A DNA stretch of 64,000 nt from Lachnospiraceae bacterium (lineage in GTDB: Bacteria > Bacillota > Clostridia > Lachnospirales > Lachnospiraceae): positions 152,530-216,529 of the forward strand of contig JAGBEO010000028.1 of NCBI GenBank assembly GCA_017936885.1, written 5' to 3'. A program made the position numbers and the translations under genes. Shown here piece by piece: positions 2,259-20,497 of this stretch. How positions within the stretch are numbered: position 1 is the first letter of the stretch; each line of letters starts with the position of its first letter. The notes beneath the pieces are model-generated. The model had not been told where the DNA came from and did no database searches. It saw only the letters and a list, made by a program, of their open reading frames with translations.

Positions 2259-2318
2259 ATGATACGAGTGCTTTTCTGTTGCCACGGCAAGATACTAACA
2301 TGTAGGCGGGAAGGCTGA
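2259..2318 (+). pseudogene. LMW-PTP gene 5' fragment (attachment-site copy 1)
   Basis: An ATG behind a good AAAGGAG site opens a frame reading MIRVLFCCHGKI and stopping after 19 codons. It matches the start of the intact phosphatase at 20045 (MIKVLFVCHGNI). At DNA level 22 of the first 31 bases agree, and the last ten, TGCCACGGCA (2280-2289), are identical. It contains no phosphatase domain beyond the start of the active-site loop. Read as the junction between elements A and B; the divergence suggests that element A came from a host with a different phosphatase allele. Confidence 0.65.
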
Positions 2319-2370
2319 CAAAATAAGGATTTCTTTGATTATTTATTGTAACTTGCAGCTGTTTTACAAC
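2316..2370. repeat. Left-end motif and arm-site candidate of element B
   Basis: TGACAAAATAAG at 2316-2327 and TTTACAAC at 2363-2370. In element C the corresponding TGATAAAATAC (9272) and TTTACCAA (9319) are also exactly 47 bp apart, which argues for a shared left-end structure. The second arm repeat expected 11 bp further on is degenerate here. Confidence 0.45.
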
Positions 2371-2494
2371 TTTTAAAAAGAATAAATGAAGCATGATACG
2401 GTAAGTCGTGGGAATGAAGAACATTCTCTCGACTTTTATTTCTGTGATAAAAGAATTTATTTTGCAAAAAAAATGCAAAACGAGAATATACAAT

Positions 2495-2523
2495 TTGACT
2501 TAGGTATATAATGAAAGTATAAT
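2495..2523 (+). promoter_or_regulatory. Sigma-A-type promoter of the ATPase/RloB operon
   Basis: TTGACT (2495-2500), a 17-bp spacer and TATAAT (2518-2523) lie about 45 bp before the ATPase start. A GGAGG site follows at about 2555. Confidence 0.7.
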
Positions 2524-2568
2524 TAAAGTGTAATTTTGCAAATAGTGAGCAAAATGGAGGAATGAAAT

Positions 2569-3897
2569 ATGTTACTTGAATTTAGGACAAAAAATTACAA
2601 ATCATTTGTAGAAGAAGTTAGGTTTTCAATGCTTGCCGCTCCAAAGCAAAAGGGGCTTGATTACAGCTTATGCATAGAAAAGATTAAAGGAAAAGCATGG
2701 AAAGGATTATCGTCTTCTGTTATTTATGGACCAAATGCAGCAGGTAAGACGAACATTATCGGAGCGATGGATGTATTCCGGTCTATTGTATTAAGAGGAA
2801 ATATTAGAAATTCTGAGGAAAAGTCTTCTCCAAATCCGGCATCGGCAGCGTTAGAACTTATTCCTAATAACAACTATACGGAGCCGCAGCCGGTAGAGTT
2901 TGCTGTAGAGTTCATAGAGGATGGACTAAGGATTGGATACAGTATCTGCTTGGATTTAGGAGTCTTTCTTGATAGTGAATATCGGAGAAATATATTGAAA
3001 GAGGAAATGACTGTTAATGGAGAATGTATTTTTTGTAGAGGTGAAGCACTTACAGTAGGGAAACTGAAAGAAATAAAACCATATATAACTGACACACTTT
3101 ACAAGAATACAGATGGATTAGTAGAAATAGCAAAGAATAGTTTGAATCAAGAGGAATTATTTTTAACCAATGGGTTTAAGCTGATATTTTCACAAGCGTT
3201 TGCAAAATTAGTTATCGATTGGTTTATGAATAAATTTATGATAATTTATAGAGCAGATTCTATGCAGCTGATTAAAAGATTTGCAGATCCACAAAAAAAA
3301 GCAGTATATGTTGAGAAGACAACGGATAAGGCGGCAAAGTTATTCGGTATTAACTCTAATGCAGTAGGATATGTAGTTACTGATGAGGATTCGGAAGCAA
3401 AGCTATATTCTTTGTTTAAGGACGTTAAAAATGGTAAAACGGCAGCAATGGCGGCGGAATTATTTGAATCCTATGGTACAATCCGTTTTGTTAATATGTT
3501 TCCATTAGTAATTAGAGCAATCTTAACAGGCGGTACATTGGTTGTAGATGAATTTGATGCATCTATTCATCCTATGGCACTTATGAGTATTATCAACATT
3601 TTCCACAATGATGATATTAACATCCATCATGCTCAGTTAATGTTCAATACACATAATCCTATATTTCTTAATTCTAATTTGTTCAGAAGAGATGAGATTA
3701 AATTTGTAGAGCGTGATGATAATAGTCATTGTAGTACCTTATATGCACTTTCTGATTTTGGGACATCTGGGGATAAAGGTGTTCGTATGCATGAGGATTA
3801 TATGAAAAATTACTTTATTAGTCAGTATGGTGCAATTAAGGACATTGACTTTACACCTATCTTTGAAGAAATCATTGTAGCAGAAGGTGAGGTGTAA
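2569..3897 (+). CDS. AAA family ATPase of an RloA/AbiL-like defence pair
   Basis: ATPase of the AAA_15/AAA_21 (SMC/OLD-related) type, 442 residues, presumed cytosolic. The N-terminus LLEFRTKNYKSF is the usual opening of these proteins. Walker A GPNAAGKT lies at about 54-61, Walker B VVDEFDASIHP at about 325-335, and the switch sequence FNTHNP near 363. There is no fused Toprim nuclease domain; that role may belong to the next gene, which starts 3 bp after the stop. ATPases paired with RloB are known from restriction-linked loci and from lactococcal abortive infection (AbiL). Promoter at 2495-2523 and a GGAGG ribosome-binding site. Start ATG is well supported. Biochemical target unknown. Confidence 0.85.
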   Translation: MLLEFRTKNYKSFVEEVRFSMLAAPKQKGLDYSLCIEKIKGKAWKGLSSSVIYGPNAAGKTNIIGAMDVFRSIVLRGNIRNSEEKSSPNPASAALELIPNNNYTEPQPVEFAVEFIEDGLRIGYSICLDLGVFLDSEYRRNILKEEMTVNGECIFCRGEALTVGKLKEIKPYITDTLYKNTDGLVEIAKNSLNQEELFLTNGFKLIFSQAFAKLVIDWFMNKFMIIYRADSMQLIKRFADPQKKAVYVEKTTDKAAKLFGINSNAVGYVVTDEDSEAKLYSLFKDVKNGKTAAMAAELFESYGTIRFVNMFPLVIRAILTGGTLVVDEFDASIHPMALMSIINIFHNDDINIHHAQLMFNTHNPIFLNSNLFRRDEIKFVERDDNSHCSTLYALSDFGTSGDKGVRMHEDYMKNYFISQYGAIKDIDFTPIFEEIIVAEGEV

Positions 3898-3900
3898 GCT

Positions 3901-4560
3901 ATGGCAAAAATGAAGAATACAAAAAAGTATTATTTTAGTGTAGAAGGCGAGACAGAACAATGGTATCTGAAATGGTTGCAGGATAGAATTAATGAAACGG
4001 AAGAATCGATAATCAAAGTGTCCTTTGATTGTCCGGTTCAAAAAAATCCTTTAAAACGAGCAAAATCAATGGTGATAACTGGAAGAACAGAAGTGTGGCA
4101 CATATCAGATTATGAAAGTGATGAACCAATTCATGTAAAACAGTTTATGGAGACCATGGACAATATGAAAGCAGTCAAAGGATTGGGAAAACAAATTTCT
4201 TATCAATTTGGATATAGCAATCTGACTTTTGATTTATGGATTATCTTACATAAGGCTGATTGTAATGGAACTATTGTTCATAGAAAAAATTATCTTGCGC
4301 CATTGAACAGAGCATTTGATGAACATTTTGAAAACATGGATGAATATAAACATGAAGCAAATTTTAAACGTTGCTTGGGAAAACTTCAATTATCAAATGT
4401 TATTGATGCAGTGAATCGGGCAAAAACAATTATGCAACGAAATCAGGATAGTGGATATGTATTACAACAATATAAAGGATATCGATATTATAAGGAAAAT
4501 CCATCGCTCGCAATATGGGAAGCAATCGATAGCATACTTAAGGATTGTGGGTTGATATGA
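3901..4560 (+). CDS. RloB-family protein, partner of the ATPase
   Basis: 219-residue protein of the RloB family, probably the effector of the two-gene defence unit. Visible support: the N-terminal strand and loop YYFSVEGETEQWYL (about 10-23), whose EGETE resembles the acidic motif of Toprim-like nucleases, and FDLWIILH at about 110-117, matching the F(E/D)LWxLLH signature of the family. It lies 3 bp downstream of the ATPase gene, with its ribosome-binding site (GGTGAGG) inside the upstream stop region, so translation is probably coupled. Family membership is firm by motif; nuclease activity is inference. Confidence 0.8.
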   Translation: MAKMKNTKKYYFSVEGETEQWYLKWLQDRINETEESIIKVSFDCPVQKNPLKRAKSMVITGRTEVWHISDYESDEPIHVKQFMETMDNMKAVKGLGKQISYQFGYSNLTFDLWIILHKADCNGTIVHRKNYLAPLNRAFDEHFENMDEYKHEANFKRCLGKLQLSNVIDAVNRAKTIMQRNQDSGYVLQQYKGYRYYKENPSLAIWEAIDSILKDCGLI

Positions 4561-5240: not shown

Positions 5241-5831
5241 TAAAGGGATAGGTTTCTAACAAAAGTGTTCTTGTATGTGATAAAATACCAGGTAGAACAA
5301 CCCTTTGATTTAGGTAGATTGTAAGATTAGGTGGTCATTTTTTACAACCGATTTACAACTTTTGAAAGATGTTCCTGTATGATAAATATTACAGATAGGA
5401 AGATACAATGAATCAACAGGTAAATATAAAAAGATGTATATAGTGGATATTTTTCAGTCTTCAAATACGTTAGAGAAAGTAGAAAAATTTAGATTATATA
5501 AAGAAAAATGAGTGATTGTAGAATCTTTTTGTTTGACTAGGAATATTCAAATTTTGATGATTCTTTAAAAAACAAAAAAGAGGGATTTCAAACTGATATA
5601 ACAAAAGCTTTTATGGAGAGAGTGAGGACACATGTTGCTTTAGGAATCCTTTGTGTTTCCTTTTTTGTGGGAAAGGAAGGATGCCGAAAGCAGGAATAAT
5701 TACGGTTCCTATGCGGTACTTGGGGCACAGAAAGATATGAATTACCATTAATTGAAAAAACAGCTCTTTTTTGCTATATTTGTATCATGAAAATTAGCAG
5801 TTAATTTAAAATTTATGGGAGGTATATTAAG
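5241..5831. other. Gap of about 590 bp, AT-rich, no confident gene
   Basis: No convincing gene. A reading frame without an ATG near its start (5541-5699) has a plausible look but no recognisable domain and may be a gene remnant. The stretch contains a clear direct repeat at 5341-5359 (separate entry) and a short TGATAAAATAC at 5278 that matches the left-end motif of element C. Confidence 0.5.
5341..5359. repeat. Internal direct repeat resembling integrase arm sites
   Basis: TTTACAAC occurs at 5341-5348 and 5352-5359, 11 bp apart, the same spacing as the terminal arm-site candidates of all three elements and the same octamer as at 2363. It may mark a fossil boundary between two smaller elements fused inside element B. 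No LMW-PTP core is clearly recognisable nearby. Confidence 0.4.
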
Positions 5832-6960: not shown

Positions 6961-6963
6961 TCC

Positions 6964-7413
6964 ATGACGGAGGATGTGGCACAGTGCTTCCGGACGATCA
7001 TCAAGGACAGGGTAGAGCCGAAATGCGAGAGGGTAGTGGATGGATATGCCGGATTCCTGTTCACAGACAAGAACGGCTATCCGGAAGTAGCCATGCATTG
7101 GGGATACCGTTTTCACCACATGATCAAGCGATACAATGATATGTACCGGGTGCAGATACCGAATGTCACTCTACACATCTGCCGCCATACTTACTGTAGT
7201 AATATGGCAAAGTCCGGCATGAACCCCAAGACGCTCCAATACCTGATGGGGCATAGCGATATCGGTGTCACGCTGAATACCTACACGTACCTTGGCTTGG
7301 AGGATGCCACGGATGAGTTGAAACGGATGGAAGAACTGGAGAACGCCAGAAAGGAGCTGGAAAAGAATAAGGAAGAGAAGCCCATTTCACAGAAAATGTT
7401 CCGGGCAATCTGA
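6964..7413 (+). pseudogene. C-terminal fragment of a tyrosine integrase
   Basis: 149 residues aligning with the last third of the integrase at 18661: MTEDVAQCF against MTEEVAACF, then the catalytic HICRHTYCSNM box, GHSDIGVTLNTY with the nucleophile tyrosine, and an extra basic/acidic tail. The arm-binding and core-binding domains and the first catalytic arginine are missing, so it cannot recombine DNA alone. The breakpoint lies right after tape-measure-like sequence. It is followed by a good terminator at 7430. Presumably the former integrase of element B. Confidence 0.75.
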
Positions 7414-7429
7414 ATAAAGAGAGTTTGTC

Positions 7430-7545: not shown

Positions 7546-8991
7546 ATGGAGCATACAGGGCACATAAAGATAGATAGAAAGAACGTGCCTTATCATTTGA
7601 TTGATGATAAGGTGACACTGATACCCTATGATACATACTCAGCACTTTTTCCAAGTGAGATTAAAGAAAAAGAACTTATAAAAGGTATTACAACAGGAAA
7701 TAGAGAAGTTGCATTTTTGAATTGTAGATATTCTAGCAGTAGGCTTGCATATCAAGTTTTGATAATTTCAACGTGTAATACAGGTTTATATGAAGATATT
7801 TCGTCATTTGACAGGGTTTGCTTTGAAGGTAAGCCAGTAAATGTATTTGCAGGACCGGGAAGGGCATATATTTCGGAAGATGGTTATGACATATCGAAAA
7901 GAATGAAATCAATAACTCCTAGAAATTGGGATGAACTTAATGTAGAGACAAATCTTAAAATAAAAAATAGGGAAATGAAATTATCAATAGATTACAGTAT
8001 TTGGCATAATAAAAAATTTATTGAAACTTCAATGGGGGAAGCAATTCCTCGGTTTTGCATCGAATACAGCAAGACCTTATCAATAAAAAATATACCAGCA
8101 ATTTATTTACAGGTGTATGATTTTTTTTCATTTATAAGTTTTAGGAGAAATATCGTGTTTGATAAAATATATATCCAAAGGAAAATCGATGGGAAATATA
8201 CTACAGTTGCAAAAGTAATAGTTAATTTGGAGGATTTTGGAGATTATAATAATACAGAAAGAAATTCGATTATTATTGATGACTGCCGTCAAAACTTTGG
8301 TGATTTATTTAAGTGTGTTGCCCAAAGGCGTCCTCAAAAAATTTATGATAATTTCTATATACCAAAAAACGGGAAAGAGAGTTCACAGCTTACATATGAA
8401 AAATTTTTATCGTGTGCATTAAGTTTGGAAAGTGAGTATGCGAGATTGTATCCAAGTAAGAAAGATGAAAATGAAAAATTTGCATATATACAAGGATTGT
8501 TTCAGGAATCCGCAGATAAGATGGATATGTTGTTTGCTTTAGCAACGGAAGATAGAATATCGCGTGATGAATTTGAAAAATGCTTTTATGGTGATGTAAA
8601 TTCAAAATTGAAGAAAAATTTTGAAAGAATGTCAAAAACCAAAGCTAAATCATACCAAAGCTACTATTTAAAAATAGTTGATGCTCTGTCGAAAATAGAT
8701 TATAGTTTGGGAGAAAAATACAAGAATGCATTAAATATGCATATGGATTTGGTGAAACCGGTTATAGATAGGATGAGCTCCGCTAATGGCGTGGTATTTC
8801 CAACTGAAAATGAGGCAGGAAAAATATTTGCAGATTTTAGGAATGGAATTGCTCATGGAAATCCACCAGAGATAGAAAAGATTCATTGTGTGCTTTTTGA
8901 AGTGGCCAGAGCATTAATTTATATAATGATATTAAAAAATGCAGAAATAGATGAAAAAAGCATTAAAAATATAGTAAGAAAGTTGTTTTGA
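7546..8991 (+). CDS. ApeA-like HEPN-domain protein (candidate abortive-infection RNase)
   Basis: 481 residues, cytosolic, no membrane segments. The C-terminal 150 residues are helical and contain FADFRNGIAHGNP (about 430-442), the R-x4-H signature of HEPN ribonucleases. The N-terminal 300 residues look beta-rich (for example the opening GHIKIDRKNVPYHLIDDKVTLI) as in the ApeA N-terminal domain. ApeA proteins are single-gene anti-phage systems that act on RNA. Start ATG 7546 has only a weak AAAGAGAG site. It stands alone between a terminator and the right end of element B, so it is probably transcribed from its own promoter in the AT-rich 7460-7540 stretch. ApeA assignment by overall layout; HEPN motif seen directly. 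Confidence 0.7.
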   Translation: MEHTGHIKIDRKNVPYHLIDDKVTLIPYDTYSALFPSEIKEKELIKGITTGNREVAFLNCRYSSSRLAYQVLIISTCNTGLYEDISSFDRVCFEGKPVNVFAGPGRAYISEDGYDISKRMKSITPRNWDELNVETNLKIKNREMKLSIDYSIWHNKKFIETSMGEAIPRFCIEYSKTLSIKNIPAIYLQVYDFFSFISFRRNIVFDKIYIQRKIDGKYTTVAKVIVNLEDFGDYNNTERNSIIIDDCRQNFGDLFKCVAQRRPQKIYDNFYIPKNGKESSQLTYEKFLSCALSLESEYARLYPSKKDENEKFAYIQGLFQESADKMDMLFALATEDRISRDEFEKCFYGDVNSKLKKNFERMSKTKAKSYQSYYLKIVDALSKIDYSLGEKYKNALNMHMDLVKPVIDRMSSANGVVFPTENEAGKIFADFRNGIAHGNPPEIEKIHCVLFEVARALIYIMILKNAEIDEKSIKNIVRKLF

Positions 8992-9226
8992 GAAATGATA
9001 TTGATTTTTACACCACTACATATCAAATTTATGCTAAAATACCACAGTAGTAAAACTCCCCAATTCCTACTACGTTTTTACTACTTTTGATGGCATCAAT
9101 TTGCCCCGTTTTGCCCTGATTTGGCATTTTTTTTGTTACATTTTTAACAATCTCAGAGCAAAATTTATATTTGGCAAACTGCGGCAAATCGGGGCAGAAT
9201 ACGGCATTTTAGGAGGGGTTTCGTTT
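8992..9226. other. Right end of element B (non-coding)
   Basis: About 235 bp without a gene. It has the arm-site candidates CTACTAC (9066 and 9077), a run of TTGCCCCG/TTGCCCTG words, and then an AGGAGGGG site immediately before the core copy at 9227. It is visibly similar to 2080-2258, confirming that elements A and B share a right-end type. Confidence 0.55.
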
Positions 9227-9265
9227 ATGATAAAAGTATTATTTGTCTGCCACGGCAGGATTTAA
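9227..9265 (+). pseudogene. LMW-PTP gene 5' fragment (attachment-site copy 2)
   Basis: ATG with AGGAGGGG site reading MIKVLFVCHGRI and then TAA. The 31 bases 9227-9257 are identical to 20045-20075, the start of the intact phosphatase gene; sequence on both sides of the repeat differs. This is what a site-specific integration leaves: one core copy at each end of element C. Confidence 0.8.
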
Positions 9266-9317
9266 CGGACATGATAAAATACTTATAAATCAAATGTTTT
9301 CTGCATCTCTGGCTCAA

Positions 9318-9338
9318 TTTTACCAATGATTTACCAAT
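9318..9338. repeat. Left arm-site candidates of element C
   Basis: TTTACCAAT at 9319-9327 and 9330-9338, 11 bp apart, about 61 bp inside the left core. The same octamer pair occurs at the right end (19887 and 19899), as expected if the element's own integrase binds both ends. Confidence 0.6.
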
Positions 9339-9374
9339 ATTTCTGGAGAGCCAGACTTGCAATTATAATACAAG

Positions 9375-9554
9375 AATGAAAAGAGTAGCAAAACAGAGGA
9401 CTTACGGCTTGCCGCCGGTCTTACCACAAATATGATTGCCAACATGGGAAAGGGAAAGCATATCAGCATGGAAACGCTGCTCCGTATCTGCGAAGCCCTG
9501 AATTGTGGTATTTTAGATGTGATTGCATTGGTACGGGATGAAGCAGATTCATAA
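9375..9554 (+). pseudogene. XRE-type helix-turn-helix regulator, 5' end missing
   Basis: Open frame without a start codon reading KTEDLRLAAGLTTNMIANMG, then ISMETLLRICEALNC and DVIAL, ending in TAA at 9552-9554. This is the typical small Cro/C1-like regulator (HTH_26 type) found on clostridial mobile elements. The first 15-20 residues and the start are gone, probably deleted when this end of the element was assembled. Confidence 0.55.
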
Positions 9555-9584
9555 AGCGAACATGGAATATATGGAGGACAGCAC

Positions 9585-9999
9585 ATGGATTACCGGGAAA
9601 ACGCCCTATGCTATGAAGATTATTGCCGTTTAAGGGAAAACGTTGGCTGGGTTAATTTTTCAAAAGAACAGGCGCAGGCGGCACTGAACAACAGTCTATA
9701 TACAGTGACTGTTTTTTGAAAATAATCAGGCTATTGGCATGGGAAGATTGATAGGCGACGGTATGTATTTGATGATAGCCGATATTGTAGTCGCTCCTAC
9801 TTATCAGAAAAAAGGGATTGGGAGCAGGATTATCAATATGCTTATAGGATATGCAGACAGGGAGCTGTCGGACGGAGGACGAGCCAGTATACAGTTGATT
9901 GCAGAAAAGGGAAAAGAACCTTTTTATGAGAAATTCGGTTTCAAGATTATTCCACATGAATTTTGCGGTTCCGGAATGAGAAAAGTTATCCGCAAGTGA
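9585..9999 (+). pseudogene. GNAT acetyltransferase broken by a frameshift in a T run
   Basis: Starts MDYRENALCYEDYCRL at ATG 9585 behind a GGAGG site and continues to VTVF with TGA at 9717. The missing remainder follows in the next frame: ENNQAIGMGRLIGDGMYLMI, then the acetyl-CoA-binding VVAPTYQKKGIGSRI and KFGFKI near the C-terminus, ending at 9999. Joining the two frames at the six-T run 9712-9717 gives a full-length GNAT of about 137 residues. Either a true pseudogene, a sequencing error in the homopolymer, or a slippery-site gene. The substrate is unknown. Confidence 0.75.
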
Positions 10000-10016
10000 G
10001 CGCAGGGAGAATAAAA

Positions 10017-12186: not shown

Positions 12187-12516
12187 ATGGAATATGAATT
12201 TATGACGATTGACACACCCCTGCCGCCCAGTATGCCGCTGCCGAGAGCCATGCTGCGGCTCCCGATCAGCAGCACCGCAAAAATCATGTATGCCCGTATG
12301 CTGGACGATATTCTGGCAAACGGCATAGAGGATATGAACGGAATTTTATTTATCTGTTTTCCGATTGTGGAACTGTCGGCGGCACTCTCCCGCAGCACCA
12401 TGACCGTGAAGCGTTCCTTGAACGAGCTGGAAGCTGCCGGGCTGATTGTGCGGGTACGTCAGGGCTTTGGAGAGCCGAACAAGATATATATACTCATTCC
12501 CAGAACGGAGGGCTGA
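12187..12516 (+). CDS. Winged-helix protein resembling the RepA N-terminal domain
   Basis: 109 residues with a winged helix-turn-helix: LPISSTAKIMYARMLDDIL, then LSAALSRSTMTVKRSLNELE and a wing ending GLIVRVRQG. The pattern is that of replication initiator protein A (RepA_N) N-terminal domains and of short regulators derived from them. It lacks the long C-terminal part of full initiators. Second gene of the small-gene operon, directly after the cysteine-rich protein. Confidence 0.65.
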   Translation: MEYEFMTIDTPLPPSMPLPRAMLRLPISSTAKIMYARMLDDILANGIEDMNGILFICFPIVELSAALSRSTMTVKRSLNELEAAGLIVRVRQGFGEPNKIYILIPRTEG

Positions 12517-12520
12517 CACT

Positions 12521-12820
12521 ATGAGTGAAAAGCTGGAAAAACTCAATCAGGAGATAGAGAAAACCGAAGCAAAGCTGCGGAGGGCGCAGCATGAGGAAAA
12601 GATTCTGGAACACCAGATAATGACGCTGACCCGAAAAGAACGGACGCACCGGCTCTGTACCAGAGGGGCGGAGCTGGAAAGATACCTGCCCCACCCGGAG
12701 CTTGTAACGGAGGAACAGGTCAAGCTGTTCTTGAAGCTGCTCTTTCATCGGGACAGCACCCGGCAGCTCATAGAACAGATATTTGCCGGAACCGGCACAG
12801 AAAAGGAGGATACGGAATAA
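12521..12820 (+). CDS. DUF3847-family coiled-coil protein
   Basis: 99 residues: an N-terminal coiled coil (LEKLNQEIEKTEAKLRRAQH), then the family's fixed KERTHRLCTRGAELE, then a helical tail. This is the DUF3847 type found next to relaxases in Firmicute mobile elements; it probably assists mobilization. The ATG at 12521 follows a GGAGGG site; a frame open further upstream to 12446 is only an overlap with the previous gene. Confidence 0.8.
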   Translation: MSEKLEKLNQEIEKTEAKLRRAQHEEKILEHQIMTLTRKERTHRLCTRGAELERYLPHPELVTEEQVKLFLKLLFHRDSTRQLIEQIFAGTGTEKEDTE

Positions 12821-12822
12821 AT

Positions 12823-13135
12823 ATGAAATTTTCAAAGGACGAGCTGGGTATGGTTTACCAGTATGCCACCGATACGAAACAGGAAACCCTTGCCGGACTT
12901 CGGGAAATCGTGCCGGTCATTCGTGACAGGCAGGCGAGAGTGTGTGGAAAGCACAATCCGAAAGCTGGACGCTATCCCGGAGCCGGAGTGCCGCCGCTTT
13001 ATCGCTGACACCAGACAGCGGTTTATCCAGAAGCGGGACAATTCAATCCGGCGCAGGCTGGCGGAAGCAAAGGCGCAGACAAGGGAGAAAACACCCCATT
13101 CCAAGAGAAAAGAACCAGACCGGGAACGGTCATAA
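12823..13135 (+). pseudogene. Transposon-transfer-assisting-type small protein, frameshifted
   Basis: Begins MKFSKDELGMVYQYATDTK at ATG 12823 (GGAGG upstream) and continues to IRDRQARVC. The natural continuation, VESTIRKLDAIPEPECRRFI and the tail KTPHSKRKEPDRERS, is in another frame. Adding one GT to the GTGTGT tract near 12940 restores a single 104-residue frame, so loss of one repeat unit is the likely cause. The N-terminal half resembles the small transfer-assisting proteins of Firmicute transposons. Not functional unless this is a sequencing error. Confidence 0.6.
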
Positions 13136-13518
13136 TGGCTTCCAGAGCGGCAAGCGTGGCTTCCCCCTCTGAAAGAGGGCGCAACTATACACCACCTGAA
13201 AGGTAGTGTGTTGCGTCCTGCCGGAAGCCCCTTGCAGGGAGCAGATGATTTCCGCAGATTTTCAATCCGCTCCAATCATCACAGGGGAAGCTACACTTCC
13301 CCTGCGCTGGCTGCCGCCAGCTACCCCTTAGTGGACTTGCCGCCTGAAAACACCTTGCTTTGCAAGCCGCTTCCAGCCAGCAAGTTTGATGAATCTGCCC
13401 ATGTTTCTTCCGGTATCTCCCGAAACGTGATATACTCAAAAAAATTGAAATTGCCTATTGACCCTCACGGAGCGTCATAGATTAAAGTGAATATATCAAG
13501 AGCAGGAGGCAGGCAGCT
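13136..13518. other. Non-coding region with hairpins before the MerR gene
   Basis: About 380 bp. Two strong hairpins: one around 13180-13216 (CGCAAC...GTTGCG with further pairing inside) and one at 13282-13300 (GGGGAAG, loop, CTTCCCC). The end carries the MerR-type promoter. The hairpins may separate the small-gene operon from the inserted MerR gene. No gene seen. Confidence 0.5.
13458..13488 (+). promoter_or_regulatory. MerR-type promoter with 19-bp spacer
   Basis: TTGACC (13458-13463), a 19-bp spacer containing GACCCTCACGGAGCGTCAT-like dyad sequence, and TAAAGT (13483-13488), about 30 bp before the MerR gene. The overlong spacer and the dyad in it are the hallmark of promoters activated by DNA untwisting by MerR-family proteins, so the gene is probably autoregulated. 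Confidence 0.65.
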
Positions 13519-14367
13519 ATGAGGACGGTAAAAGAAATATCAGATTTAACAGGTATCAGCGTGCGCACGCTCCACTATTATGATGAAATCGGGCTGTTAA
13601 AGCCGACAGATAAAAGTGAAGCGGGATACCGGCTTTATGACGATAAGGCATTGGAAACATTACAGTCAATTTTATTTTTCCGTGAATTTGATATTCCATT
13701 GAAAGAAATCAAAACTGTTATGGAAAATCCGGCACTTGAAAGAAATCAGATTTTGCAAATGCAGAGAAAAATGCTGGTAGCAAAGAAAGAACGCATGGAA
13801 CGTTTGATTGCCAGCATTGACAGAATTTTGAAAGGAGATAATAAAATGGATTTCGCAGTTTTCAGCAGAACAGAAATTGAAGAAATGTTTCAGACTATGT
13901 TGGAGCACATGCCGGAAAATATGAAAGAACTTTCAATTAAAGAGTTTGGAAGTATTGAACAATGGAAAGAGCATTATATGCAGGTAATGTCCAGAGAAGA
14001 AATGCAGAAAGGCTATGCAAAGGTTGTTGAGTGGTATGGCGGAAAAGACAATTTCCTATCAGTTGCCAACAAACCTATTAGTAAAGAAGTAGCCGAAAGT
14101 TATAACAGACGCATGGAGGCAATTTTACAAAAACTAATCGCAAAGAGAGCGTGCGATGTAAATTCTTTTGAAGTCAAGGAGGTAGTTGGAGAATTTGGTT
14201 TTGTTATGAAGCAGCTTACGCAAATAAAAAGCGAAGAAGGGCTTATGCTGGCACAGGCACAATACTATCGAAACGAAAAAATCAAGCCGATGATAGATGA
14301 AAAATATGGTGCAGGGGCTTCTGATTTTTTCGCACAAGCAATAGAAGCCTTTTACAAAAGCGAATGA
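13519..14367 (+). CDS. MerR-family regulator with TipAS-type ligand domain
   Basis: 282 residues. N-terminal MerR winged helix (about 1-70: VKEISDLTGISVRTLHYYDEIGLLKP, GYRLYDD), a dimerisation helix to about 110, then a TipAS-like antibiotic-recognition domain (TEIEEMF at the start, EEMQKGYAKVVEWYGG near 160, SDFFAQAIEAFY at the end). TipAS domains bind thiopeptides and other drugs and induce resistance genes. GGAGG site. It sits between the small mobilization genes and the relaxase, a cargo position; no obvious drug-efflux target is adjacent, so the regulated gene may be itself or lie elsewhere. Confidence 0.85.
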   Translation: MRTVKEISDLTGISVRTLHYYDEIGLLKPTDKSEAGYRLYDDKALETLQSILFFREFDIPLKEIKTVMENPALERNQILQMQRKMLVAKKERMERLIASIDRILKGDNKMDFAVFSRTEIEEMFQTMLEHMPENMKELSIKEFGSIEQWKEHYMQVMSREEMQKGYAKVVEWYGGKDNFLSVANKPISKEVAESYNRRMEAILQKLIAKRACDVNSFEVKEVVGEFGFVMKQLTQIKSEEGLMLAQAQYYRNEKIKPMIDEKYGAGASDFFAQAIEAFYKSE

Positions 14368-14478
14368 TCTAAAGTTTAATTAAATACCCGCCGCCCACCG
14401 GCGGCACCACCAAGCAGGAAATCTTTGATTAGGTTCCCTGCTCTTTTTATGCCCGGAAACGGAAGAAAGGAGGAATCC

Positions 14479-16083
14479 ATGCCAAGAAAGCCATGCCCCC
14501 ACTTTGATGTACGGATTATACAACGCAGCAATCGACAGTCAGCCGTTGCTTCCGCTGCCTACCAGAGCGGCGAGCGGCTCTTTTCCGAATACGACCAGAA
14601 GCAGAAATACTATTCCCATAAAAGCGAGATTGTCCACACGGAAATCATGTTGCCGCCCCATGCCCCGCCGGAGTACGCAGACCGCAACACCCTATGGAAC
14701 GCCGCCGAAGCTGCCGAGAAGCAATGGAACGCCCAGCTTGCCCGGAGAATCATTCTTGCCATTCCAAGGGAAATCCCCCCGGAGCGGCAGGCTGACCTTA
14801 TCCGGGACTATTGCCGGGAGTTTTTCGTTTCCAAAGGCATGATTGTCGATTTTGCCGTCCACGACAAAGGAGACGGCAACCCCCACGCCCATATCCTCTT
14901 TACCATGCGGGCTATGGACGAATCCGGCAAATGGCTTCCCAAGTCCCGCAAGGTCTATGACCTTGACGGGAACGGCGAGCGAATCCGGCTACCGTCCGGG
15001 CGCTGGAAAAGCCACAAGGAGGACACCGTGGACTGGAACGACCAGAAGTATTGCGGGATCTGGCGGCAGGGCTGGGAGGACACCGCCAACCGCTATCTGG
15101 AAGAACTGGAAAGCCCGGTGCGCTTGAACTTAAAATCCTATGCGGAACAGGGCATAGACCAGATTCCCACCGTCCACATGGGAGCCGCCGCCAGCCACAT
15201 GGAGAAGAAAGGCGTTAAGACCGGCATTGGAAACCTGAACCGGGACATTGCAGCCGCCAACCGGCTCATGCGCTCAATCCGGCAGACGGTACGGAGTTTA
15301 AAGGGCTGGCTCTCCGACCTGAAAGAGAAAAAGGCGGCGCTTATGGAAACCCTGACCCAGACAAGGGAGCCGACCCTGCCGGCGCTTCTTTCCCGCTATA
15401 TGGACTTGCGGCGGGAGGAACGCTCTGACTGGACAGCCAAAGGGCAGCTTAAAGGCGCTGTCTCCGATTTTAACAAGGTCATGGCGGCGATTGACTTCTT
15501 GCAAAAGCAGCAAATCTCCACCGTGGAGAGCCTTGACAAGCGGCTGGACGAAATCAGCCAGACCGCACAAGCTATCCGAAAGGAAATGAAGAAATCCGAG
15601 CGCCGGATCAATGCCATTGATACCATGCTCTCCCACATTGACCGCTACGAAGCCGCACAGCCTGTCCATGCCGAGTATGCCGCTATCCGCTGGAAAGGGA
15701 AGAAAGAGAAATTCGCCGCCGCCCACCGGGACGAGCTGGACGCTTATAATGCCGCCGTCCGCTATTTCAAAGCGAACCCAAAAGACAAGGAATACAGCCG
15801 GAAAGACCTGACTGCCGAGCGCAAGACGCTTTCCGATTCCCAGCCGGAGCAGACGGAGAAGCTGGAAGCGGTTCAGGCAGACCTAAACGTGCTGCGGGAC
15901 GTGCGTTACTGGATAAACCAAGTGCTGCCGCCGGAGCAGTACCGCCAGCCCCCGGAAGCGGACGGGCGGAAGTCGCTCCAAAGCGAGCTAAAGGGACGGG
16001 CAGAACGCACCAAGCGGCAACAGGCGGCACAGAGCCGGAGTCAGCCGCCCCGCCCCCAGAAAAAACAGGATATGGAGCTATGA
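14479..16083 (+). CDS. MobA/MobL-family relaxase (MobQ type)
   Basis: 534 residues. Relaxase that would nick oriT and pilot single-stranded DNA in conjugal mobilization. N-terminal catalytic domain: PHFDVRIIQRSNRQSAVASAAYQSGE, the tyrosines near 29-39, and the metal-binding GNPHAHILFTMR at about 132-143. The C-terminal 250 residues are coiled coil and highly charged, probably for helper contacts. ATG 14479 has a perfect AAGGAGG 5 bp upstream; the longer frame from 14425 does not. Its stop overlaps a small ORF start (ATGA), then the primase gene follows. No mating-pore genes nearby. Confidence 0.9.
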   Translation: MPRKPCPHFDVRIIQRSNRQSAVASAAYQSGERLFSEYDQKQKYYSHKSEIVHTEIMLPPHAPPEYADRNTLWNAAEAAEKQWNAQLARRIILAIPREIPPERQADLIRDYCREFFVSKGMIVDFAVHDKGDGNPHAHILFTMRAMDESGKWLPKSRKVYDLDGNGERIRLPSGRWKSHKEDTVDWNDQKYCGIWRQGWEDTANRYLEELESPVRLNLKSYAEQGIDQIPTVHMGAAASHMEKKGVKTGIGNLNRDIAAANRLMRSIRQTVRSLKGWLSDLKEKKAALMETLTQTREPTLPALLSRYMDLRREERSDWTAKGQLKGAVSDFNKVMAAIDFLQKQQISTVESLDKRLDEISQTAQAIRKEMKKSERRINAIDTMLSHIDRYEAAQPVHAEYAAIRWKGKKEKFAAAHRDELDAYNAAVRYFKANPKDKEYSRKDLTAERKTLSDSQPEQTEKLEAVQADLNVLRDVRYWINQVLPPEQYRQPPEADGRKSLQSELKGRAERTKRQQAAQSRSQPPRPQKKQDMEL

Positions 16084-16142
16084 CCAGACAACCGAATATC
16101 AAACCTTATCAACCGGCGCTTGCCATTTTCAACCGAGAATGA
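16080..16142 (+). CDS. Possible 20-residue leader peptide overlapping relaxase stop
   Basis: ATG overlaps the relaxase stop as ATGA and encodes MTRQPNIKPYQPALAIFNRE. It could couple translation into the primase gene 41 bp on, or be the stump of a lost gene. No domain; low support. Confidence 0.25.
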   Translation: MTRQPNIKPYQPALAIFNRE

Positions 16143-16183
16143 CAGGTGCTTTTTCTATTTCAGGATTTTCAGGAGGACTTTTA

Positions 16184-16831
16184 TTGAATGTATTTGAAGC
16201 CGTGAAGCAGGCTGTCACGACAAGGCAGGCTGCCGAGCATTATGGAATCCGGGTGAACCGCAACGGAATGTGCGCCTGCCCGTTTCACAACGACAAGACC
16301 CCCAGCATGAAAGTTGACCGCCGCTTCCATTGCTTCGGCTGTCAGGCGGACGGGGACGTGATTGACTTTGTTTCCCGCCTGACCGGAATCGGCACAAGGA
16401 AAGCCGCCGTCATGCTGGCGCAGGATTTCTCTATTCCCTACGAGGACAGAGCGCCCACCGGCAGGAGTCGCCCCAGACCCAAAGCGCCGCCCGAAACGCC
16501 GGAGCAGCAATTTAGGCGCATGGAGCGGTATGCGTTTCGTGTACTGTCCGACTATTATCATTTCCTGCGCCGCTGGGAGAAAGACCTTGCCCCGCAAACG
16601 CCGGAGGAAACATGGAACCCGCTGTTTACGGAAGCCCTGCAAAACAAGGCAAAGGTGGAATACCTGCTGGACACCCTGCTTTTTTCCGGCATGGAGGAGC
16701 GGGCTTCCCTCATTACCGAGTATGGAAAGGAAGTGAAACGCCTTGAGCGAAGAATGGCAGAGCTTACCGCCGAAGATAAGGCAGGACGTGACCGAAGCCA
16801 TCGCCGCAGCGCCCCCGCCCCGAAGCGTTGA
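16184..16831 (+). CDS. CHC2 zinc-finger (DnaG-like) primase domain protein
   Basis: 215 residues. Zinc-binding domain of DnaG-type primases near the N-terminus: CPFHNDKTPSM followed by RFHCFGCQADGDVIDFV, the complete C-H...C-C pattern. No Toprim catalytic domain follows; the rest is helical and charged. TTG 16184 is chosen as start because AGGAGG lies 7 bp upstream and the product then begins MNVFEAVKQAV. The 3' end overlaps the next gene by 89 bp in another frame, so the two are probably translated together and work as a replication pair for the excised circle. Confidence 0.8.
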   Translation: MNVFEAVKQAVTTRQAAEHYGIRVNRNGMCACPFHNDKTPSMKVDRRFHCFGCQADGDVIDFVSRLTGIGTRKAAVMLAQDFSIPYEDRAPTGRSRPRPKAPPETPEQQFRRMERYAFRVLSDYYHFLRRWEKDLAPQTPEETWNPLFTEALQNKAKVEYLLDTLLFSGMEERASLITEYGKEVKRLERRMAELTAEDKAGRDRSHRRSAPAPKR

Positions 16832-18140
16832 CGAGGTAAAGTCCATGCTGGAAACTACGGAGAAAGGCGGCTTCCGCAACAGCATACGGAACTGCCTGAC
16901 CGTGTTCCAGTGTGATCCGCTCCTTTCCGGCGCAATCGCCTACAATATGCTGACTGACCGCAACGACATCATAAAGCCGCTGGGCTATGAGCGCACCACC
17001 GGCAAGGCAATCACGGACACGGATATGCGGTATATCCGGCTGTATCTGGAAGAAACCTACGGGCTTACCAGTGAGAAAAAGATTGCGGACGCCTGCGAGC
17101 TTGCCGCCCACCAGAACAGCTACCACCCGGTCAGAGATTACTTAAACAGCCTGACATGGGACGGGACAGAGCGAATCCGCTTCTGCCTGCGGCGCTTTCT
17201 GGGAGCTGACGCAGACGATTACACCTATGAAGCCCTGCGGCTTTTCATGCTGGGAGCCATTCACCGGGCATTCTGCCCCGGTTGCAAATTTGAGGTCATG
17301 CTCTGTCTGGTAGGCGGTCAGGGAGCCGGGAAGTCCAGCTTCTTTAGGCTGCTTGCCGGAAAGGACGAATGGTTTTCCGATGATTTGCGGAAGCTGGACG
17401 ATGAAAACGTCTACCGCAAGCTGCAAGGCTTCTGGATTATCGAAATGTCGGAAATGATTGCCACCGCAAACGCAAAGAGCATTGAGGAAATCAAGTCATT
17501 TTTAAGCCGCCAGAAAGAGGTCTACAAGACCCCCTATGCCATCCACCCGGAGGACAGACCAAGGCAATGCGTGTTCGGCGGCACTTCAAACGCCCTTGAC
17601 TTCCTGCCCCTTGACCGTTCCGGCAACCGCCGCTTCCTGCCGGTTCTGGTATGCCCCGAACAGGCGGAAGTCCACATTTTGGAGGATGAAGCCGCTTCAC
17701 GGGCTTATATCAGCCAGATGTGGGCGGAAGCCATGACAATATACAAAAGCGGCGGCTGGAAGCTGGCACTCACTCCCGAAATGGGACGCTACCTAAAGGA
17801 ACACCAGCGGGACTTTATGCCGGAGGACACCAAGGCGGGGCAGATTCAGGCGTTCCTTGACAGCTACACCGGCGGGGCGGTCTGCTCCAAGCAGCTCTAC
17901 AAGGAAGCCTTAAACCATGCCTTTGACGAGCCGAAGCAATGGGAAATCCGGGAAATCAACGAGATAATGAACCAGTGTGTCACCGGCTGGAAGTATTTCT
18001 CCAATCCCCGTATGTTCGCCGGGTACGGCAGACAAAAGGGCTGGGAACGGGAGCAACCGGCAACGGGCATCGACAACGGAGGGGAAAAAACGCCGGACGG
18101 ATTCGAGCCGGTCACGGAGCAAATGGAGCTTCCGTTCTGA
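16743..18140 (+). CDS. VapE/VirE-like P-loop protein (replicative helicase type)
   Basis: 465 residues. Virulence-associated E family ATPase: Walker A GGQGAGKSSFF near 198-208, FWIIEMSEM as Walker B region near 235, KEVYKTPYA and GTSNALDFLPLDRSGNRRF (sensor and arginine-finger area). Such proteins usually sit next to a CHC2 primase domain on satellites and mobilizable elements and are thought to drive replication of the excised form. Starts at TTG 16743, overlapping the primase gene. The C-terminal tail of 60 residues is low complexity. GC-rich like its neighbours. Confidence 0.8.
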   Translation: MSEEWQSLPPKIRQDVTEAIAAAPPPRSVDEVKSMLETTEKGGFRNSIRNCLTVFQCDPLLSGAIAYNMLTDRNDIIKPLGYERTTGKAITDTDMRYIRLYLEETYGLTSEKKIADACELAAHQNSYHPVRDYLNSLTWDGTERIRFCLRRFLGADADDYTYEALRLFMLGAIHRAFCPGCKFEVMLCLVGGQGAGKSSFFRLLAGKDEWFSDDLRKLDDENVYRKLQGFWIIEMSEMIATANAKSIEEIKSFLSRQKEVYKTPYAIHPEDRPRQCVFGGTSNALDFLPLDRSGNRRFLPVLVCPEQAEVHILEDEAASRAYISQMWAEAMTIYKSGGWKLALTPEMGRYLKEHQRDFMPEDTKAGQIQAFLDSYTGGAVCSKQLYKEALNHAFDEPKQWEIREINEIMNQCVTGWKYFSNPRMFAGYGRQKGWEREQPATGIDNGGEKTPDGFEPVTEQMELPF

Positions 18141-18306
18141 AAAAATCCGGGCAGGAACGACCCCGTTGCCGACTTCGTTGCTATCCCGTTGCCGACCCTT
18201 TCCTTGTCTGGCTCATTTCATGTGCGCGGGCAACGAGCCAAGCGGATATGCTTACATATCCATTTGGCGACTGCCGCGACAACGACAGTTATGGAGGTAA
18301 ATGCCT

Positions 18307-18540
18307 ATGGCAAATAACAGGATGAATGACGATACAAAAAGATATTCAGATATTCCGGTCTGGTGTAGATATACGCTGACCATTGAAGAAGCTGCCGGAT
18401 ACTACCATATCGGCGAGGGAAAGCTGCGAATGCTCATTGATGCACATCCCAATGAGGATTTTTATGTTATGAATGGGAACAGAGCCTTGATTAAGCGTGA
18501 GAAATTCGAGCGGTATCTGGATCAGGCAACGGTTGTATAA
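18307..18540 (+). CDS. xis: Excisionase (Tn916 Xis-like)
   Basis: 77 residues with a MerR-like winged helix: YTLTIEEAAGYYHIGEGKLRMLI, then DFYVMNGNRALIKREKFERYLD. Small basic excisionase that would bind near the element ends and favour excision by the downstream integrase. GGAGG at 18293-18297 gives 9-bp spacing to ATG 18307, better than to the ATG at 18301. Base composition changes here from GC-rich to the lower GC of the int gene. Confidence 0.85.
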   Translation: MANNRMNDDTKRYSDIPVWCRYTLTIEEAAGYYHIGEGKLRMLIDAHPNEDFYVMNGNRALIKREKFERYLDQATVV

Positions 18541-18633
18541 AAAGTTCAAAAAGAGAAATAGCAGATTGCCGTTATCCTATGATAAAGCTATACGGAGAGT
18601 CAAATTTGTGGTATTATAACCTTGCAAGTTTGG

Positions 18634-18655
18634 CTCTCCTTTTTTGAAAGGAGAG
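18634..18655 (+). promoter_or_regulatory. Hairpin sequestering the integrase ribosome-binding site
   Basis: Perfect 9-bp inverted repeat CTCTCCTTT (18634-18642), loop TTTG, AAAGGAGAG (18647-18655). The right arm is the Shine-Dalgarno sequence of int (ATG 18661). In mRNA the hairpin would hide the site, so int translation may be limited or depend on an alternative upstream structure. Confidence 0.6.
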
Positions 18656-18660
18656 TTTCG

Positions 18661-19860
18661 ATGAGTGAGAAAAGACGAGATAACCGTAATCGGATTTTGC
18701 GTGAGGGCGAGTACCAGCGCACAGATGGGAGGTATCGGTTCCGTTATATTGATGAGGACGGCAAGGAGAAAAATGTTTACAGTTGGCGTTTGGATAAGAA
18801 TGACCCTACGCCCAAAGGAAAAAAGAGGGAGCCTTCGCTGCGGGAAAAAGAGAAGCAGATTGAAGCTGATTTGTTTGACCACATTGTAACCAATGGCGGT
18901 AACTACACGGTATTGGAGCTGGTAGAGAAGTATGTGTCTTTGAAAACCGGCGTTCGTCATAATACCGTTGCCGGGTACAAGACGGTCATTAACATCCTGA
19001 AAAAAGAAGCGTTTGGCAGGCAGCGCATTGATAAGGTACGTTTGTCGGATGCAAAGGCGTGGCTTATCAAACTTCAGCAGGTAGACGGCAGAGGGTATAG
19101 CTCCATTCATTCTATCAGAGGCGTTCTCAGACCGGCATTTCAGATGGCGGTAGATGATGACCTAATTCGCAAAAATCCTTTCGGATTTGAACTGGCATCG
19201 GTTATTGTCAATGATTCTGTTACGAGAGAAGCGATTACCCGGAAGCAGGAGAGGGATTTGCTGAAATTCATTAAAGAAGATAATCATTTCAACAGATATT
19301 ATGATGCAATCTATATCCTTTTCCACACGGGGCTTCGGATTTCAGAGTTTTGTGGATTGACAATACCTGATATTGAGTTTGAGGAGATGCGTATTAAGGT
19401 AGACCACCAACTACAGCGTACATCACAGATGGAATATGTGATTCAGGAGCCGAAAACCGAAAGCGGCATTCGCTATGTGCCTATGACAGAAGAAGTTGCG
19501 GCGTGCTTTAGCAGGATAATTGCCAAGCGGGAAGCTCCGAAAGTAGAGCCGATGGTGGATGGATATATCCGTTTCTTATGTTTGGACAAGAACGATATGC
19601 CTATGGTTGCGCTTCACTGGGAAAAGTATCTGGAACATATCATTGAAAAGTATAACAAGATTTATCGTATCCAGATGCCGAAAGTAACCCCTCATGTATG
19701 CAGACATACCTTTTGTTCCAATATGGCAAAGTCGGGGATGAACCCCAAGACTTTACAGTATATCATGGGTCATGCAGACATTAGCGTAACCTTGAACACC
19801 TACACCCATGTGAATTTTGACGATGCCAAGGAGGAATTGCATCGAGTAGCGAATGGCTGA
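18661..19860 (+). CDS. int: Tyrosine integrase of element C (Tn916 Int family)
   Basis: 399 residues. Integrates and excises the element at the LMW-PTP gene. N-terminal arm-binding domain as in Tn916 Int (GEYQRTDGRYRFRYIDEDGK), core-binding SAM-like domain about 85-175, catalytic domain with R226 (HTGLRISE), H345-x-x-R348 (HVCRHTFC), H371 (GHADIS) and nucleophile Y381 (NTYTHV). ATG 18661 follows AAAGGAGAG. The gene ends 184 bp before the right core, the usual place for a phage-like int. The fragment at 6964 is a relative. Confidence 0.93.
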   Translation: MSEKRRDNRNRILREGEYQRTDGRYRFRYIDEDGKEKNVYSWRLDKNDPTPKGKKREPSLREKEKQIEADLFDHIVTNGGNYTVLELVEKYVSLKTGVRHNTVAGYKTVINILKKEAFGRQRIDKVRLSDAKAWLIKLQQVDGRGYSSIHSIRGVLRPAFQMAVDDDLIRKNPFGFELASVIVNDSVTREAITRKQERDLLKFIKEDNHFNRYYDAIYILFHTGLRISEFCGLTIPDIEFEEMRIKVDHQLQRTSQMEYVIQEPKTESGIRYVPMTEEVAACFSRIIAKREAPKVEPMVDGYIRFLCLDKNDMPMVALHWEKYLEHIIEKYNKIYRIQMPKVTPHVCRHTFCSNMAKSGMNPKTLQYIMGHADISVTLNTYTHVNFDDAKEELHRVANG

Positions 19861-19869
19861 AAAGCCCGT

Positions 19870-19907
19870 TGGTAAGACAGCTTATTTTACCAACGTATTT
19901 ACCAATT
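19870..19907. repeat. Right arm-site candidates of element C
   Basis: TTTACCAA at 19887 and 19899 (12 bp apart) plus an inverted TTGGTAA at 19870-19876. The direct pair matches the left-end pair at 9319/9330. Confidence 0.6.
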
Positions 19908-20044
19908 TTGCAGGAACAAATATGAGAAAGTATGGGACGATTTGAGAAAATACTCTGGAAACAGAGATTTTCGGAACAGCCCACAAACCCTGTAAAATCA
20001 AGCATTTGAGAAGAAATACAGGACTTATAAGGAGTTACAGAAAA

Positions 20045-20497
20045 ATGATAAAAGTATTATTTGTCTGCCACGGCAACATCTGCCGCAGCACCATGGCCCA
20101 AAGCGTCATGACCCACCTTCTAACCCAACATCACACAGCAGACAATTTTCAAATTGACTCCGCAGCAACCAGCCGCGAAGAAATCGGCAACCCGCCCCAT
20201 TACGGAACCGTCAATAAGCTGCGCCAGGTAGGTATCCCGTTGGTGCCTCACAGGGCGCGCCAGATGACGAAACAGGACTACACCGAATGCGATTACTTAA
20301 TCGGTATGGACGATGCCAACATCCGCAACATGGAACGGATAGCAGGCGGTGACCCGGAACATAAGATCCATAAATTGTTGGAATATGCCGGAAGCAGCAG
20401 GGCGATCGCAGACCCTTGGTACACAGGGAATTTTGATGTGACATACGAAGATGTGTTAGAAGGATGCGAAGCATTCCTAAGGTATCTCGGATTATAA
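20045..20497 (+). CDS. Low-molecular-weight protein tyrosine phosphatase (integration target)
   Basis: 150 residues, cytosolic. Active-site loop VCHGNICRST near the N-terminus (C-x5-R, C8 and R14) and the conserved DP of IADPWYTG near 121, so a complete LMW-PTP that dephosphorylates phosphotyrosine or arginine (the arsenate-reductase-like fold). ATG 20045 follows GGAG; an in-frame TTG at 20006 has no site. The first 31 bp are repeated at 9227 and, diverged, at 2259, so this gene is the attachment site of the tandem elements, and its first ten codons, ribosome-binding site and promoter now come from the end of element C. Followed by a terminator. Confidence 0.9.
   Translation: MIKVLFVCHGNICRSTMAQSVMTHLLTQHHTADNFQIDSAATSREEIGNPPHYGTVNKLRQVGIPLVPHRARQMTKQDYTECDYLIGMDDANIRNMERIAGGDPEHKIHKLLEYAGSSRAIADPWYTGNFDVTYEDVLEGCEAFLRYLGL

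Follow-up and report, generated by a model that had tools for sequence, protein, structure and literature searches.

Stacked units at the start of a low-molecular-weight protein tyrosine phosphatase gene, very probably the attachment site of a lineage of Tn916-type integrases

Gene-start copies and the unit next to the phosphatase gene

We analysed a 64-kb stretch of Lachnospiraceae DNA (the window; C18:152530-216529, on contig C18 of a 3.57-Mb draft genome) in which a gene for a low-molecular-weight protein tyrosine phosphatase (LMW-PTP) is preceded by a row of DNA units that end in copies of the gene's own first 31 bp. These 31 bp are called the core below, and the units are called U0 to U6, with U6 nearest the gene. 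U6 spans 9227-20075 (10.8 kb), and its relaxase, excisionase and integrase frames are open. Its ends, its main genes and the target gene are the following.

9227..9257, + strand: core copy 6, the left attachment site (attL) of U6, identical to the gene start
9319..9337, + strand: left arm-type repeats of U6, TTTACCAA at 9319 and 9330
14425..16083, + strand: MobA/MobL relaxase of U6 (Pfam, 5.1e-88)
16139..18140, + strand: primase zinc ribbon and VapE-like replication genes of U6 (Pfam, 4.1e-16 and 1.4e-68)
18301..18540, + strand: excisionase of U6, Tn916-Xis family (Pfam PF09035, 1.6e-18)
18661..19860, + strand: integrase of U6, Tn916 type (Pfam PF02920, 1.6e-31; PF00589, 1.4e-31)
19869..19905, + strand: right arm-type repeats of U6, inverted TTGGTAA at 19869, TTTACCAA at 19886 and 19898
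20045..20075, + strand: core copy 7, the right attachment site (attR) of U6 and the first phosphatase codons
20045..20497, + strand: LMW-PTP, the target gene (Pfam LMWPc, 5.7e-34)

The exact recurrence of the 31 bp at 9227-9257 and 20045-20075, to which an earlier note on this DNA had pointed, was confirmed (expected number 0.00; none of 100 shuffles gave as many). The same is true of the third copy it had described, at 2259-2289, which is identical to the copy at 20045 in 22 of 31 bases (71%) and ends in TGCCACGGCA, a 10-mer with three matches in the window against 0.13 expected and none of 100 shuffles giving as many. Because the window cuts the array, the array is longer than that note could show. 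Four more copies lie 5' of the window, with 5, 6, 3 and 0 mismatches respectively, and the contig thus holds seven, all on the + strand, at C18:139301, 142910, 146630, 147732, 154788, 161756 and 172574, the last three being those in the window. They were picked by mismatch count without any coding pattern, and no eighth copy with 10 or fewer mismatches was found on either strand of C18:100001-216529 (116.5 kb).

All seven copies carry a GGAG-type ribosome-binding site, an ATG and the first ten phosphatase codons, translating as MI(K/R)(V/I)LF(V/I/C)CHG, and each copy fused to the gene body gives a stop-free frame of 150 residues. Together the other copies differ from the gene copy at 23 bases, and these differences change six residues in all; when the same substitutions were placed at random, 14.9 residues changed, and none of 20,000 runs gave as few as six. 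Because so few residues were altered, we infer that the gene starts at the unit ends were probably once under selection as coding sequence.

The ends of U6 are marked by repeats of a second kind. On the + strand of the window TTTACCAA occurs five times, and four of these occurrences lie at the two ends of U6, two at each; TTACCAA was found in 64 of 75 right ends of relatives. We take TTTACTAC to be the complement of the Tn916 arm site. The U6 integrase combines an N-terminal arm-binding domain with a catalytic domain and matches the 'Int protein' of PDB entry 6emy (1.4e-86), presumably the Tn1549 integrase. It is 45.8% identical to an integrase in phage records that is probably that of Tn916, and it would be expected to bind the paired repeats at the element's ends. 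With both a relaxase and an integrase among its predicted genes, U6 is classed as an integrative mobilizable element (IME), and it may well still be able to excise. Pfam searches of 12 U6 proteins, which took in all but the remaining short open reading frames (ORFs), detected no transfer apparatus. The cargo of U6 at 9739-10778 and 13519-14367 comprises a truncated-looking GNAT-domain ORF, a metallo-beta-lactamase-fold protein and a MerR/TipAS regulator.

We conclude with high confidence that the start of the LMW-PTP gene is the attachment site of a lineage of Tn916-type integrases, and that repeated insertion followed by decay produced the array. The proposal of the earlier note that this is an array of integrative elements is supported, with three amendments: it extends over at least seven core copies, the integrases of the upstream units are fragmentary or missing, and the element brings the translation start and roughly six codons, with host DNA taking over around bases 16-24.

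The integrase and its target in other genomes

We examined the link between integrase and phosphatase in three samples. For the first we used the best 80 of 554 named relatives of the U6 integrase (78-97% identical to it); 77 of these loci have at least 300 bp past the integrase, and the other three end too soon. The earlier note had proposed a search for the core beside related tyrosine integrases, and the core was indeed found there, 99-222 bp past the end of the integrase in 74 of the 77. In 64 of these 74 it runs on as an LMW-PTP gene with the motif CHGN-x-CRS (one of them, L147, has an early stop), and the remaining 10 are orphan cores, after which other sequence follows. The hosts include Lachnospiraceae, Oscillospiraceae, Gemmiger, Faecalibacterium and Blautia wexlerae.

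The second sample started from the phosphatase. We searched 60 genomes of the family, each from a different genus, with Pfam LMWPc, and from the 88 matches took the 30 best genes, which lie in 30 genomes. A Tn916-type integrase or a fragment of one ends 154-299 bp upstream of 14 of the 30, the gene in the window included; a few of the other 16 have short upstream sequence (132 bp in L267, none in L268). Every one of the 14 genes preceded by an integrase encodes Cys-His-Gly, and none of the four genes with CLG, CYG or CWG has an integrase upstream. The same type of integrase is therefore found at the same target in unrelated hosts, whether counted from the integrase (74 of 77) or from the gene (14 of 30).

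For the third sample we searched 299 genomes of the family with a core pattern that was built from the motif, so that its counts are conditioned on coding. The pattern was present in 152 genomes and the reversed pattern, used as a control, in none. At least 17 genomes besides the window's own have two or more core copies on one contig and strand. Of 30 loci taken from genomes with the pattern, 23 contain an LMW-PTP gene, which is preceded by an integrase in 13 of them. Many of the 40 stretches that were mapped were picked for holding several cores. In one locus (L055, G047:C27:8000-20500; 11023-11127 of the locus) an orphan core lies only 104 bp 5' of the LMW-PTP start and may be a single end that remained after a deletion. 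Six draft contigs (G284:C121, G306:C9, G328:C48, G353:C2, G338:C49 and G117:C2) begin or end about 200 bp or less from a core, which would fit assembly breaks caused by repeats or mixed populations.

The link also follows the descent of the integrase. We reduced 172 full-length integrase matches to 88 tree rows by dropping identical proteins, coreless integrases followed by less than 450 bp, and three of every four from L088-L167, and scored an integrase as linked when a core lay within 700 bp of it. Linkage changed seven times on this tree as against 27.2 times in shuffles, with none of 500 shuffles as low, and the starred branches force at least five changes. The U6 integrase belongs to a clade of 31, all of them linked to the phosphatase, and a second clade of four integrases at 46-49% identity is linked as well. 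In some members of a clade scored mostly as unlinked, cargo lies between integrase and core, with the core at +1871 in L230, +1031 in L233 and +3065 in L237. The layout of U5 in the window (integrase fragment, gene, right end) matches this plan.

Several kinds of element use the site. One prophage (L222) has portal and minor head genes, then an integrase, then the phosphatase at +216, and the 52-kb phage CHVD 5762 continues into an LMW-PTP gene, its right end resembling that of U4 and that of U5. Given also the mobilizable elements, we consider it very likely, as we do the whole explanation of which it is part, that the users of the site are mobilizable elements, prophages and possibly larger conjugative elements. 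In CHVD 5762 about 6.6 kb (PV036456.1:380-6995), including a DNA methyltransferase gene, separate the integrase from the phosphatase start. Two genomes of the genus have cores 59 kb apart on the same strand (G346:C6:37037-96148 and G343:C21:96362-155508), and these intervals could possibly be whole conjugative elements. Streptococcus phage Javan141 was not counted, since its LMW-PTP gene stands beside ruvB and away from the integrase. A 79.5-kb Ruminococcus phage record has an LMW-PTP-like gene (PV036440.1:7562-8032) amid phage genes, 31 kb from its integrase.

The orientation of the region varies. In the 20 genomes with a core and PstS on one contig, PstS is downstream in 17 and upstream, facing away, in three (G303, G330 and G352). 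PstS is upstream and not downstream in loci L074, L084 and L087, and an MCP gene is upstream in L075; these arrangements suggest that the gene was inverted together with its array, perhaps between inverted cores. Cores in both orientations surround the phosphatase gene in L087 (G352:C45:50000-69000), at 55201 (+), 62059 (+, the gene), 66555 (-) and 67271 (-).

The junction within the gene start and the upstream units

We estimated where element DNA gives way to host DNA from 40 pairs of loci, drawn from 33 of 117 gene loci, whose right ends are at least 97% identical over 100 bp in different hosts. Mismatch in these pairs, which are not independent of one another, was expressed relative to pairs with unrelated right ends. 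At the variable bases from 6 to 15 of the gene the relative mismatch was 0-0.2, except for 0.70 at base 13, and it was 0.41 at base 5. It rose to 0.25-0.50 over bases 18-21 and then to 0.8-1.5 over bases 24-33, and was near 1 past base 33, with low values at bases 46, 58, 68 and 70. When near-identical right ends occur in different hosts, the core is thus mostly common to base 15 and host-like from base 24. Base 31, one position past the end of the search pattern at base 30, is A in all 63 distinct orphan copies, and from base 32 on these copies diverge from the genes. The mismatch profile and the boundary of the orphan copies place the switch to host DNA around bases 16-24 (codons F-V/I-C), just before or at the codon of the catalytic Cys; the element supplies the leader, the ATG and about six codons, and from the catalytic Cys codon onward the gene is the host's. 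Minor forms make up only 5-9% at the third positions of TGC CAC GGC, an unusual constancy that would be expected if the integrase reads these bases. The host gene keeps its frame with the element-supplied start, judged by the motif in 64 genes, one of them with an early stop. A 6-bp overlap at codons 4-5, which analogy with Tn916 might suggest, receives no support from the profile.

Reading these junctions as products of integration leads to the following mechanism. The integrase would bind the paired arm repeats at both ends of the element, and the element's core would recombine with bases 1-31 of the LMW-PTP gene, the strands switching around bases 16-24. After integration the frame would be kept, with the element providing the 5' leader, the ribosome-binding site, the ATG and roughly the first six codons, probably also a promoter, and with host DNA resuming at the catalytic Cys codon. 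The displaced older gene start would move upstream with the previous insert, so that repeated insertion and decay of older inserts would leave remnants that each end in their own gene-start copy. In the present array at least six units between seven cores would have arisen in this way, with defence genes kept. The cores, the integrase link, the retained frame, the mosaic start and the end repeats can be read directly from the DNA. The order of insertion is a step further: the array probably grew at the gene and pushed older units upstream, and this fits because the intact integrase is next to the gene and the fragments lie upstream. The upstream units and their features are the following.

U0, left of the first core copy (C18:139301): AbiEi/AbiEii and an NYN protein
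U1, 3.6 kb: integrase fragment and KAP NTPase (PADLOC candidate PDC-S20)
U2, 3.7 kb: integrase fragment at its end
U3, C18:146630-147732, 1.1 kb: a single RhuM-Fic gene (PDC-S23)
U4, 7.1 kb, left core at C18:147732: HamA (two ORFs) and HamB, a Hachiman-like pair
33..2051, + strand: HamB helicase gene, 3' part, U4 (PADLOC HamB, 4.4e-215; whole gene L005:16325-18577)
2079..2258, + strand: U4 right end, TACTAC pair 11 bp apart, inverted GTAGT, ribosome-binding site
2259..2289, + strand: core copy 5, U4/U5 junction, MIRVLFCCHG
U5, 7.0 kb: AbiLi/AbiLii, DUF559 protein, integrase fragment, gene without a family match
2569..3897, + strand: AbiLi-like AAA ATPase, U5 (Pfam AAA_21, 1.1e-23; PADLOC AbiLi, 2.8e-68)
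3901..4560, + strand: RloB/AbiLii-like protein, U5 (Pfam RloB, 7.2e-16; PADLOC AbiLii, 3.3e-13)
5300..5367, + strand: probable relic left end of another element inside U5, TTTACAAC twice, 11 bp apart
6964..7413, + strand: integrase remnant, C-terminal part, U5 (Pfam Phage_integrase, 5.7e-12)
7546..8991, + strand: U5 cargo gene between integrase remnant and right end, without a Pfam or PADLOC match
9040..9226, + strand: U5 right end, TACTAC pair 11 bp apart, inverted GTAGT, ribosome-binding site

With the U6 integrase as query, integrase fragments were found in U1, U2 and U5, and none was detected in U3 or U4. The fragment in U2 includes a stretch of 29 residues that is 93% identical to the U6 integrase, and the remnant in U5 is 60% identical to residues 269-396 of it. 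U1 to U5 are thus bounded by attachment (att) sites and lack an intact integrase, as in an array of cis-mobilizable elements (CIMEs); no transfer genes were found among their Pfam-scanned proteins, a scan that covered part of the ORFs. By eye the right end of U4 resembles those of U5 and prophage CHVD 5762, and the stretch at 5300-5367 in U5 looks like the left ends found at C18:139301 and 146630, which makes it probably the left end of another element. The RhuM-Fic gene of U3 stops 20 bp before the next core, leaving too little room for right-end repeats. HamA (C18:151331-152313; L005:15331-16313), which precedes the window, is split into two overlapping ORFs that match one PADLOC model at 3-177 and 181-310, and the HamB frame is open.

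Anti-phage-type genes thus occur in several upstream units (AbiE, Hachiman and AbiL). We compared the cargo of arrays with downstream DNA using a random 100 of 146 array ORFs and a random 100 of 334 downstream ORFs, leaving out ORFs below 120 or above 900 aa, those with unread bases and the array ORFs of L062, a near-copy of L058. The array sample matched 106 PADLOC models and the downstream sample 39; because these counts are models and not proteins, enrichment for defence is not proven and we do not claim it.

Weighing the readings and relation to known elements

Several observations weigh against the attachment-site reading. Three of the 77 integrase relatives lack a full core, which is degenerate in L098 and L127 and absent from L105, and 34 of the 88 integrases in the tree were scored as not linked. 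Several of the latter (L230, L233, L237, L239, L068 and L069) reach a core or a phosphatase gene beyond cargo, and for the remaining ones no core or phosphatase gene was found. Among 20 single-core loci on long contigs, each of 17 kb with about 14 kb of it upstream, six have an intact gene with neither an orphan core nor an integrase detectable with the U6 query. A single sharp crossover does not account for the mismatches at bases 13 and 18-21 in tight clusters, and low ratios recur at bases 46, 58, 68 and 70; the silent differences at bases 13 and 18-21 may possibly reflect drift or heteroduplex repair. A simple scan found no promoter-like site on the + strand of the right end of U6. No circular form was found, a small record with a 75% identical integrase (MT839341.1) having neither core nor terminal repeat. 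The earlier note would have expected genomes with an empty site or with integrase-linked duplication of the core. Duplication proved widespread, but an empty site with matching flanks was not found by any route tried, namely by way of the neighbouring genes (TtcA-like, PstS and radical SAM) in 60 genomes of the genus, by all-against-all comparison of the ORFs of fetched loci, and in the genus of one relative (one genome).

Four other explanations were considered. The first is compatible with the attachment-site reading and concerns what the array does: the site would be real, the upstream units would be dead, and their defence genes would be passengers that bring no gain. The division of HamA into two ORFs, the fragmentary integrases of U1, U2 and U5 and the unproven enrichment of defence cargo speak for it, but the relaxase, excisionase and integrase frames of U6 are open, as are the AbiE, AbiL, HamB and RhuM-Fic frames in the array, and we regard an inert array as possible though doubtful. 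A second explanation is an integron-like array of one-gene cassettes shuffled by one integrase, with the core as cassette site. If this were so, units such as the 1.1-kb U3, with its one gene ending just before the next core, and the absence of an intact integrase from five upstream units would be natural. Yet the units found elsewhere, mobilizable elements or prophages, carry diverged integrases of their own, unit ends carry two kinds of repeats, three units of this array contain integrase fragments, and the target is a gene start and not an integron platform. A cassette array is accordingly very improbable.

The third explanation, which the earlier note had named as one that could overturn its proposal, is that the phosphatase gene was duplicated locally and then decayed, so that the outer copies would be remains of old tandem genes. 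The copies do match the gene in frame and in N-terminal residues. It is untenable nonetheless, because the likeness of orphan copies ends sharply at base 31 and the units hold different genes; moreover, the cores are followed by left-end sequence, which comes after cores in other genomes too, and an integrase adjoins the core in 74 of 77 relatives. We give it next to no weight. Equally negligible is convergent coding, in which the conserved motif MIKVLFVCHG would make short ORF starts alike by chance or by choice of pattern: the family-wide counts are conditioned on the motif from which the pattern was built, but the reversed-pattern control was 0 in every genome, the scan of the window's own contig used mismatches only, and the Pfam-chosen and integrase-chosen samples, which are independent of the motif, show the same link.

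An attachment site for Tn916-type integrases at the LMW-PTP start has close parallels, and the comparisons that follow rest on parts of the sources named. Elements specific for dusA, such as IMEVchUSA3, integrate in the 5' end of the gene and provide a replacement start (PMC8409611). As here, integration is site-specific and the site serves prophages and mobilizable elements; the dusA elements belong to Proteobacteria and their new 5' coding sequence diverges markedly (PMC8409611), whereas the residues are nearly unchanged at the phosphatase. Here, unlike at dusA, the junction lies at codons of the catalytic loop and arrays of several units are frequent; the integrases were not part of this comparison. 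Streptococcal integrative and conjugative elements (ICEs) insert at the 5' ends of ftsK, ebfC and rbgA (PMC4701971). They share with the present elements a Gram-positive host, tyrosine integrases, conserved 5' gene ends as targets and flanking direct repeats (PMC4701971), but their target genes are others, and the word 'phosphatase' occurs 0 times in the main text of PMC4701971; the integrases again lay outside the comparison. CIMEs are decayed elements that keep their att sites, and later elements enter at attR beside the target gene (PMC5704250). The decayed, att-bounded units and the later insertion at the gene-side attR are common to both (PMC5704250); here, by contrast, one gene has gathered at least six units, several of which carry defence genes, and it serves as target across many genera.

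The comparison with Tn916 separates machinery from target choice. Like Tn916 and Tn1549, the present lineage has an integrase with an N-terminal Integrase_DNA domain and a tyrosine recombinase domain, an excisionase of Tn916-Xis type and paired end repeats (PDB 6emy, 1b69; PMC4701971, PMC12084037). Tn916 itself has low target specificity and leaves no flanking direct repeats (PMC4701971). Unlike Tn916, the LMW-PTP lineage goes to one site and leaves a 31-bp repeat, and the low specificity without direct repeats was not seen in it. Of other elements, IME_Rho_tet has been reported, in the part of the literature consulted, mostly in MAFF2 ORFs and Tn7088 at a tRNA gene. Among the open papers listed by literature searches, with most subscription papers outside their scope, no title or abstract names LMW-PTP as an attachment site. 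Integration at 5' ends and accretion are known; the target and the specificity for this type of integrase are new here, and the scale is unusual.

As to what the site means for its hosts, we see roughly even chances that the following picture is right. The LMW-PTP start would be a landing pad across gut Clostridia, occupied now or once in 14 of the 30 genera examined in one family, or about half of them. A target in the catalytic loop, held constant by its codons and indispensable to every host, would have turned Tn916-type integrases from promiscuous to strict. If each element does supply leader and start, the element that arrived last would for that reason set the expression of the phosphatase, and the stacking of remnants would build a defence island.

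A very widely used attachment site joins the short list of sites at gene starts, and Tn916-type integrases, known for promiscuous insertion, are met here with a strict target. Orphan gene starts with their own ribosome-binding site can serve as a marker for the insertion history of islands, and in Lachnospiraceae and their relatives they would also help to locate the right ends of phages and mobilizable elements. Two ideas become testable, that host phosphatase is expressed from element-borne leaders and that defence genes collect at such sites.

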